Positions 34,107 through 35,992 of a DNA stretch of 38,818 bases are shown in pieces. The notes beneath the pieces were generated by a model. It was not told where the DNA came from and ran no database searches. It worked only from the letters and a program-made list of their open reading frames with translations. The DNA is taken from assembly GCA_938083505.1 (NCBI GenBank), contig CALKCF010000006.1:1-38818 (forward strand), given 5' to 3'. A program made the position numbers and the translations under genes. Within the stretch, counting starts at the first letter, position 1. Each line of letters starts with the position of its first letter. The DNA comes from an uncultured archaeon (GTDB lineage: Archaea; Thermoproteota; Nitrososphaeria_A; Caldarchaeales; Wolframiiraptoraceae).

Positions 34107-35258
34107 TCAATGTACATGTGTATTTTCTATTGAAAGTCTTCTGATTCCGAGTTCGGCCACTATTCTTTCTAACTCATACTCTAACTCGTTGTCGATGGTA
34201 AATTGAGCCGGGATGGCAGGTTGTGGAATTTTAAATTCCTCATTCGTTTTCGGCAAACTTGTAGTCTCAATTTCAGCACTACTACTGAATGCATCGCTAA
34301 GACCTGTAAGTATAAGCGAAACTTGCATTGTTGATGCGTAATAATTATCAATCCTTGCACCCCATATTACAAGAGTATCCATACCCATCAGCTCCGATAT
34401 TATTTCCGCCGGTCTTGCTGCCTCGCTCAGCTTCATATCCTCACCACCTGTGACATGCACTATTGCACCCGATAACTTCTCGTAAGTTACGTCGAGCAAT
34501 GGTGATTGCAGAGCGTTAAAAGTGGCCTCTTCAGCCCTGTTTGGTGACGAAGACCTACCTATGCCTAAAGATGCTAGGCTACCCTTCTCAACGAGGGTTT
34601 TGAAATCTGCGTAGTCTATGTTTATCAAACTTGGCTTCACTATTGATTCTGTTATACTAAGCATCATATTATTTATTACATCATCAACTAACGAGAATGC
34701 TGTCCTTAACTCATACTGTGGATAGAAATCTATTAACTTGTTGTTATCTATTAATACCACAGTATTGCATACTTCTTTTAACCTTTGCAATCCCTGTAGC
34801 GCTATTTTCTTTCGAACATTACCTTCGAACCTAAAGGGTAAAGTTGCTACGCTGATGACTATAGCTCCCAACTCTTTTGCTATCGATGCAACTACAGGCG
34901 CGCCTCCAGTGCCGGTACCGCCACCCAAGCCTGCCATCACAAAGACTATATCTGCATCGCTGAGCAAATTTCTAAATTCGTCCTCACATTCCTCGGTTGC
35001 CATCCTACCCTTTTCCGGGTTTCCGCCAGAGCCCCTAAACCTCGTTGTGTTTTTCCCAAGTACAATCTTGTGGTGAGCTCTAACCATTTCTAGATGTTGC
35101 ACATCTGTGTTTGCTGCAATTGTTATAACACCATTTAATCCTTGTGAAGCCAGCCGGCTGATAGTGTTACAGCCAGCCCCACCTATGCCGACCAGCTTTA
35201 TACGAATGCCGTCAATTTTTTCAACATCACTAGGACTAGCTAGCATAATCTCACTCAC
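34107..35258 (-). CDS. ftsZ: FtsZ, tubulin-like cell division GTPase
   Basis: FtsZ polymerises into the ring that constricts dividing cells. The tubulin signature GGGTGTGG is at residues 112-119, the first nucleotide loop is GIGGAGCN, and the T7 catalytic loop is NIDYADF with D215 and D218. All GTPase elements are thus intact, unlike the divergent FtsZ of many ammonia-oxidising Thaumarchaeota. The C-terminal ~40 residues form a variable linker. The last residues (ELGIRRLSIENTHVH) could be a partner-binding tail. The GTG start at 35258 overlaps the stop of the upstream ribbon-helix-helix gene by eight bases, so the two are coupled. Confidence 0.95.
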   Translation of the reverse strand: MSEIMLASPSDVEKIDGIRIKLVGIGGAGCNTISRLASQGLNGVITIAANTDVQHLEMVRAHHKIVLGKNTTRFRGSGGNPEKGRMATEECEDEFRNLLSDADIVFVMAGLGGGTGTGGAPVVASIAKELGAIVISVATLPFRFEGNVRKKIALQGLQRLKEVCNTVVLIDNNKLIDFYPQYELRTAFSLVDDVINNMMLSITESIVKPSLINIDYADFKTLVEKGSLASLGIGRSSSPNRAEEATFNALQSPLLDVTYEKLSGAIVHVTGGEDMKLSEAARPAEIISELMGMDTLVIWGARIDNYYASTMQVSLILTGLSDAFSSSAEIETTSLPKTNEEFKIPQPAIPAQFTIDNELEYELERIVAELGIRRLSIENTHVH

Positions 35259-35403
35259 TTGCCGGCATCTCCTCCATTATGAAATCTCTAACGGCCGTTC
35301 TTATTGCCTCGGCCCTGTTTGGGTAAAGCTTTCGTCTTACGAGCTCGTCTATTACTTCAAGGTAAACCTCTGGAAGGTGAACAGTTACAACCTTCACCAT
35401 CAT
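35251..35403 (-). CDS. Small ribbon-helix-helix DNA-binding protein upstream of ftsZ
   Basis: This 50-residue protein reads MMVKVVTVHLPEVYLEVIDE, then LVRRKLYPNRAEAIRTAVRD, and ends PASE. A short strand (KVVTVHLP) followed by two helices with YPNRAEAIRTAVRDF is the classic RHH/CopG pattern; such proteins bind DNA as dimers through the paired strands. AGAGGTGG lies directly before the ATGATG start. The stop overlaps the ftsZ GTG by eight bases, so the protein is made together with FtsZ. The arrangement resembles haloarchaeal cdrS-ftsZ2, where a short RHH protein regulates division genes. Whether it controls this promoter is inference. Confidence 0.88.
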   Translation of the reverse strand: MMVKVVTVHLPEVYLEVIDELVRRKLYPNRAEAIRTAVRDFIMEEMPASE

Positions 35404-35442
35404 CCACCTCTTTTACTTGGAGCAAGCTAAAAGTGAAGGTAT

Positions 35443-35501
35443 CAGAAATCTATTGTTAATACGTCGGTATATTTGCACGAGCTACGCATGAGCGATTTCT
35501 G
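35443..35501. repeat. Inverted 8-bp repeat upstream of the RHH-ftsZ operon
   Basis: CAGAAATC (35443-35450) and GATTTCTG (35494-35501) are exact reverse complements, 43 bases apart, 40-100 bases upstream of the RHH start. The spacing is about nine or ten helical turns from arm to arm. It is a candidate for a DNA-binding protein acting at this promoter, possibly the RHH protein itself, but an 8-base repeat can arise by chance. Confidence 0.3.
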
Positions 35502-35587
35502 CTAAATAAAATATCATAAATTGACAATTTCCATCGGAAAAATGTGTCAAACTTTTCAAAAATAAAGATTTTTTAGTCCAAAAATAT

Positions 35588-35992
35588 ATGGAAGTTGGGA
35601 TGCGACAAAGGCAAGAATTGACTGAAAAACTGCTTAAGATTATGAATGACTTGAAGTCTGAAAGCGAGTTAGGTGCAGTCATATTGGTCGAAGGAAAGCA
35701 TGATGAGGAATGTCTTAAACGACTGGGCATAAAGGGTACGATACTCAGGTATACTTCTATAAGAACCTTGCTAAATTGGGCTGAAAATAACAGCGCGACT
35801 AGATTAATAGTGTTAACAGATTTAGATATCGAGGGGAAAAGTATCGCTAGAAAGATTGTCGCAAATTTATCAGGACGTATGAAAGAAATCGACATTTCAT
35901 ATATGAGAAAGTTGTCAATATTGAGAAAGATAGGTATAAGTGAAATAAAAGATATAATCAACCTTATACCAGAAAGTGGACCGGTCTATTAA
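35588..35992 (+). CDS. Small TOPRIM-domain protein (UPF0292-like)
   Basis: The 134-residue protein is almost only a TOPRIM domain: the conserved Glu is E35 in ILVEGKHDE, and the DxD pair is D78/D80 in LTDLDIEGKS. This is the metal-binding set found in topoisomerases, primases and OLD nucleases. Short archaeal proteins of this type are collected as UPF0292, with no known role. An N-terminal helix precedes the domain. Starts at 35588 or 35600 are both possible. Its end overlaps the convergent aminotransferase stop by four bases. Confidence 0.8.
   Translation: MEVGMRQRQELTEKLLKIMNDLKSESELGAVILVEGKHDEECLKRLGIKGTILRYTSIRTLLNWAENNSATRLIVLTDLDIEGKSIARKIVANLSGRMKEIDISYMRKLSILRKIGISEIKDIINLIPESGPVY

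Follow-up and report, generated by a model that had tools for sequence, protein, structure and literature searches.

A CdrS-like ribbon-helix-helix gene overlapping ftsZ in the Caldarchaeales, with a candidate operator upstream of the pair

A short ribbon-helix-helix (RHH) gene stands directly upstream of ftsZ in each of the 40 Caldarchaeales genomes in which a canonical ftsZ is found (coordinate comparison and locus checks), on the same strand, as in a CdrS-FtsZ2-type locus. We consider it likely that the locus is an operon of this type, i.e., that an RHH regulator is coupled with ftsZ, shares one promoter with it and regulates division genes. The pair described here (Table 1) was found in a window of 38,818 nucleotides, the whole stretch of DNA analyzed, from a hot-spring archaeon that is a Candidatus Terraquivivens species (Caldarchaeales, "Aigarchaeota", TACK); its closest named relatives belong to the same genus and their RHH proteins are 96-98% identical. 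Caldarchaeales were formerly called Aigarchaeota, and one of them, Wolframiiraptor gerlachensis, is in cultivation (PMC9246946).

Table 1 Features of the RHH-ftsZ locus in the window
Feature	Coordinates	Strand	Evidence or remark
ftsZ, 383 aa, GTG start within the 3' end of the RHH gene	34107..35258	-	TIGR00065
Overlap of 8 nt, GTGAGTGA, ftsZ start / RHH stop	35251..35258	-	36/40 Caldarchaeales genomes
CdrS-like RHH gene, most likely 48 aa from a GTG start	35251..35397	-	RHH_1 match, starts in congeners, dN << dS, AF2
Shine-Dalgarno-like GAGGTGG of the RHH gene	35404..35410	-	SD-like motif in 35/36 Caldarchaeales loci
Probable core-promoter (TATA) position, weak, GATTTCTGAT	35441..35450	-	upstream alignment; CTTTAT-like in most relatives
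Conserved dyad ATACcgacGTATTA, candidate operator	35457..35470	-	60-73 nt upstream of the RHH GTG
Second conserved block TTGTCAATTTATG (consensus TTATCATTTT-TG)	35515..35527	-	consensus of 36 upstream regions
Divergent Toprim-domain ORF (PRK04017-like)	35588..35992	+	context only

The first-pass annotation had read a small ORF of 50 residues with an RHH pattern and its own ribosome binding site. The ORF (35251-35403, minus strand) and the binding site are both present, but the length needs correction: the GTG at 35397, which gives 48 aa, is most likely the true start rather than the ATG at 35403, because neither upstream ATG of the window is found in the congeners, where the conserved GTG follows directly on a stop or non-start codon. 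In these congeners GGAGGTG or GAGGTG stands 7-8 nt 5' of the GTG. The RHH pattern is borne out by a match to Pfam RHH_1 (2.8e-7, 30.7 bits, cut-off 20.5) and by an AF2 model (alignment of 29 sequences, mean pLDDT 86, pTM 0.60) with the expected helices at residues 10-21 and 28-47; in length, score and predicted fold the product thus resembles the short RHH_1 protein of a CdrS-FtsZ2-type locus. Foldseek searches with the monomer model retrieved RHH antitoxin domains as best matches, mostly of the ParD type, at weak E-values that are unsurprising for a 48-residue monomer. Among the NCBIfam models the haloarchaeal CdrS model (NF058555) comes first (3.1e-10), ahead of NikR (1.8e-7) and aCcr1, though with 39.9 bits the protein misses the equivalog cut-off (100 bits) by far. 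Among solved structures, those nearest in a sequence-profile comparison are of the N-terminal RHH domain of NikR (1q5v, 1.3e-6), yet the protein here has 48 aa in all and is without the metal-binding C-terminal domain of NikR. Another small RHH protein of TACK archaea, aCcr1 of Sulfolobales, is a cell-division regulator and inhibits the expression of cdvA (PMC7617429); its model, however, matches weakly (6.8e-4, 19.5 of 60 bits) and its target is an ESCRT-type division gene.

The downstream gene is a canonical ftsZ (342 bits with TIGR00065, above the cut-off) and gives the only Tubulin-family match in the 1.15-Mb window genome. As first annotated, its GTG (35258) overlaps the RHH stop by eight bases, and this length recurs in 36 of the 40 Caldarchaeales genomes (11, 4, -1 and -1 nt in the other four), which suggests translational coupling of the two genes. 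RHH homologues across the Caldarchaeales are 70-82% identical, and in comparisons of the window with five congeners 8-17 synonymous stand against 1-2 nonsynonymous differences (dS 0.31-0.91, dN 0.009-0.019), a pattern indicating that the RHH gene is under purifying selection. A frame that was disrupted or unconserved in relatives had been named beforehand as grounds for giving up the gene; frame and adjacency are kept in the 40 genomes. Three genomes without detectable FtsZ (G058, G065 and G051; loci L088, L089 and L090) have a close RHH relative beside a MiaB-like gene, so that the regulator can persist where ftsZ is gone or work on other targets. Other arrangements were also seen, e.g., two RHH genes, divergent in sequence, that precede ftsZ in the same orientation (L057:407-1279, G099), and a truncated piece of the ftsZ-linked RHH gene at another site, 5' of an HflX-like gene, in a one-contig genome (L085:3865-3984, G024). 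The window genome also has two ESCRT-III-like matches. SepF, which is reported to accompany archaeal FtsZ systematically (PMC8178401), gave no match in a Pfam search of this genome and only weak ones in a few relatives, and a divergent SepF is possible.

A dyad common to the regions 5' of 36 Caldarchaeales loci, ATAC-N4-GTAT, as a rule with TA after it, has constant arms and a variable centre and stands at a near-fixed place, about 65-75 nt from the RHH start and ahead of the probable core promoter; we regard it as a candidate operator of the RHH-ftsZ promoter. It is exact in 23 of the 36 loci, 45-90 nt from the start (Markov-1 random mean 0.013), and present with at most one mismatch in 26, counts that are only descriptive because the dyad was spotted by eye and then counted on the same loci, which include close relatives and hence are not independent. 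Exact copies come from several genera of the window's family as well as Caldarchaeum and Pelearchaeum, and two genomes of family f3 outside the counted set (L066, L068) also carry one, with a TTAC extension on the other arm. Calditenuaceae hold the GTATTA arm only, the other being lost, with the RHH strand sequence unchanged. In several Bathyarchaeota loci a similar ATAY-N4-GTAT lies ~55-58 nt upstream, where it may overlap the TATA box, and 7 of 24 loci outside the Caldarchaeales have the dyad with at most one mismatch (random mean 0.6, and no more than 4 in any of 300 simulations). In the window genome the exact motif shows no enrichment (4 matches vs 11 for the control), nor does the exact 15-mer across 44 genomes (43 vs 51 for the reversed control, tallies hand-summed), and no wider dyad regulon is therefore visible with it; 18 of the 43 15-mer matches sit at RHH-ftsZ promoters by coordinate matching. 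The dyad is not described in the text of the papers searched, and its newness is provisional. The second conserved block may belong to the promoter of the divergent gene. An inverted repeat upstream in Terraquivivens (TTTCC-GAT-GGAAA) was discarded as inconsistent across families, and a sigma-70/terminator scan is uninformative for archaea.

We postulate that the RHH protein would act as a DNA-binding dimer, and that its gene and ftsZ would be co-transcribed from one promoter, to which the 8-nt overlap is the one observation that points, and translationally coupled. Division genes are the most likely targets of the protein, and its own operon is a probable one, through the dyad just 5' of the core promoter. 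The outcome would be that the doses of FtsZ and its regulator stay tied. A likeness to the haloarchaeal CdrS-FtsZ2 pair, proposed from the letters of the window, stands up well: CdrS is the best family model, and the pairing is found in Caldarchaeales, Bathyarchaeota and two Asgard lineages. Haloarchaeal CdrS acts on ftsZ2/ftsZ1 and controls division, and its short RHH gene immediately precedes a division ftsZ in the same orientation, likely within one operon, as here (Darnell 2020, PMC7439475; Liao 2021, PMC8406309). Differences are nevertheless apparent, i.e., an 8-nt overlap replaces the 3-nt gap of H. volcanii, no CdrL was seen, ftsZ is single and ESCRT-III-like genes are also present. Furthermore, H. 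volcanii has an 18-site CdrS regulon, 15 of the 18 sites lying 41-110 nt 5' of a TSS (PMC7439475, PMC8406309), whereas here the dyad precedes the gene pair and nothing points to a wide regulon.

Beyond the Caldarchaeales, the 80 named loci nearest to the RHH profile, picked for their RHH similarity and a biased sample of FtsZ, comprise TACK and Asgard loci and a single locus with the label Thermoplasmatota, its FtsZ falling among those of Bathyarchaeota. Among them the RHH-ftsZ pair occurs in Bathyarchaeota and in three Asgard records, one of Odinarchaeota and two of Baldrarchaeota, whose FtsZ are near-identical and amount to roughly one observation; some Bathyarchaeota have a close RHH without a neighbouring FtsZ. 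RHH linkage follows particular FtsZ clades: the linked label needs 2 changes on an FtsZ tree of 45 rows against a shuffled mean of 12, the rows being hand-picked, without a named FtsZ2, with near-copies that inflate the clustering and with deep forks left open. A second Bathyarchaeal FtsZ clade (L071-L076, L079) is without the RHH gene and includes two genomes, G053 and G175, that also have a linked copy. In the literature, FtsZ2 is assigned to Caldarchaeales (PMC9723716). RHH searches gave only weak matches in plasmids and none in phages.

With only 48 codons, the ORF could be taken for a chance open frame, a reading that conservation refutes and to which we give next to no weight: synonymous differences far outnumber nonsynonymous ones among congeners, the Shine-Dalgarno motif, start and stop are conserved, and homologues occur across archaeal lineages. 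Toxin-antitoxin genes usually show a patchy spread, and an orphan ParD/antitoxin-like gene beside ftsZ by chance would sit uneasily with the invariant adjacency and conserved overlap seen here. No adjacent toxin gene was found, the neighbours being ftsZ, the Toprim ORF and, beyond ftsZ, a convergent methionyl-tRNA-synthetase-like ORF (named by eye), and the ParD model itself reaches an E-value of only 0.063. The Foldseek neighbours are mostly ParD-type, and Pende et al. name the ftsZ2 neighbour parD (PMC8178401), but we rejected this explanation as very improbable.

The RHH protein might regulate distant targets only, with another regulator, e.g., a second RHH paralogue, on the dyad in a CdrL-like division of labour, a scheme we hold to be possible but rather doubtful. 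In Halobacterium it is CdrL for which binding to the cdrS-ftsZ2 promoter was demonstrated, a precedent for this scheme, and CdrL is reported only in Halobacteria (PMC7439475); this, together with the missed cut-off and a dyad unenriched genome-wide, weakens the CdrS-FtsZ2-type reading. In favour of the scheme, nearly all Caldarchaeales have a second RHH (about 43-50% identical), but it lies near translation genes, away from ftsZ, and in the window genome it has no zinc ribbon. There it is 43% identical (G000, contig C2:26143-26274; L082:4144-4275), with neighbours that look by eye like PAC2-family, aIF2-alpha and ribosomal protein genes. A Candidatus Pelearchaeum sp. (WAQC01000037.1, L134:3001-3297) encodes a second CdrS-like RHH of 98 aa, 65% identical and not beside ftsZ, whose tail resembles a C2H2 zinc finger by eye, an arrangement reminiscent of haloarchaeal CdrL, in which a zinc ribbon accompanies the RHH. 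A narrower form of the operon reading, in which the CdrS-like protein would be a dedicated autoregulator with the dyad at its own promoter as its single site and the FtsZ dose set by translational coupling, is put forward only tentatively. The operon reading, with its autoregulation through the dyad, is also weakened by the Calditenuaceae, as they keep the RHH strand sequence yet lost one arm.

The CdrS-FtsZ2-type operon that we favour is in keeping with the early suggestion of an ancient control unit, which the conserved pairing supports well; RHH-ftsZ pairing in archaea, however, is already published (Darnell 2020; Pende 2021; PMC9871819), ftsZ2 being reported "frequently with parD" (Pende 2021, PMC8178401) and its contexts usually containing an RHH_1 gene (PMC9871819), so that the added surprise is modest. 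What the Caldarchaeales contribute is tight quantitative support, from all 40 genomes with a canonical ftsZ and in 36 of them with one and the same overlap, for an RHH regulator and a division FtsZ that have stayed together not only in Euryarchaeota but also in TACK and Asgard lineages. If true, dedicated autoregulation in cells with ESCRT-III-like genes would represent a less complex and perhaps more ancient way of control than the 18-site regulon of Haloferax. A specific candidate operator of 12-14 bp would make archaeal ftsZ control directly testable in a small system.
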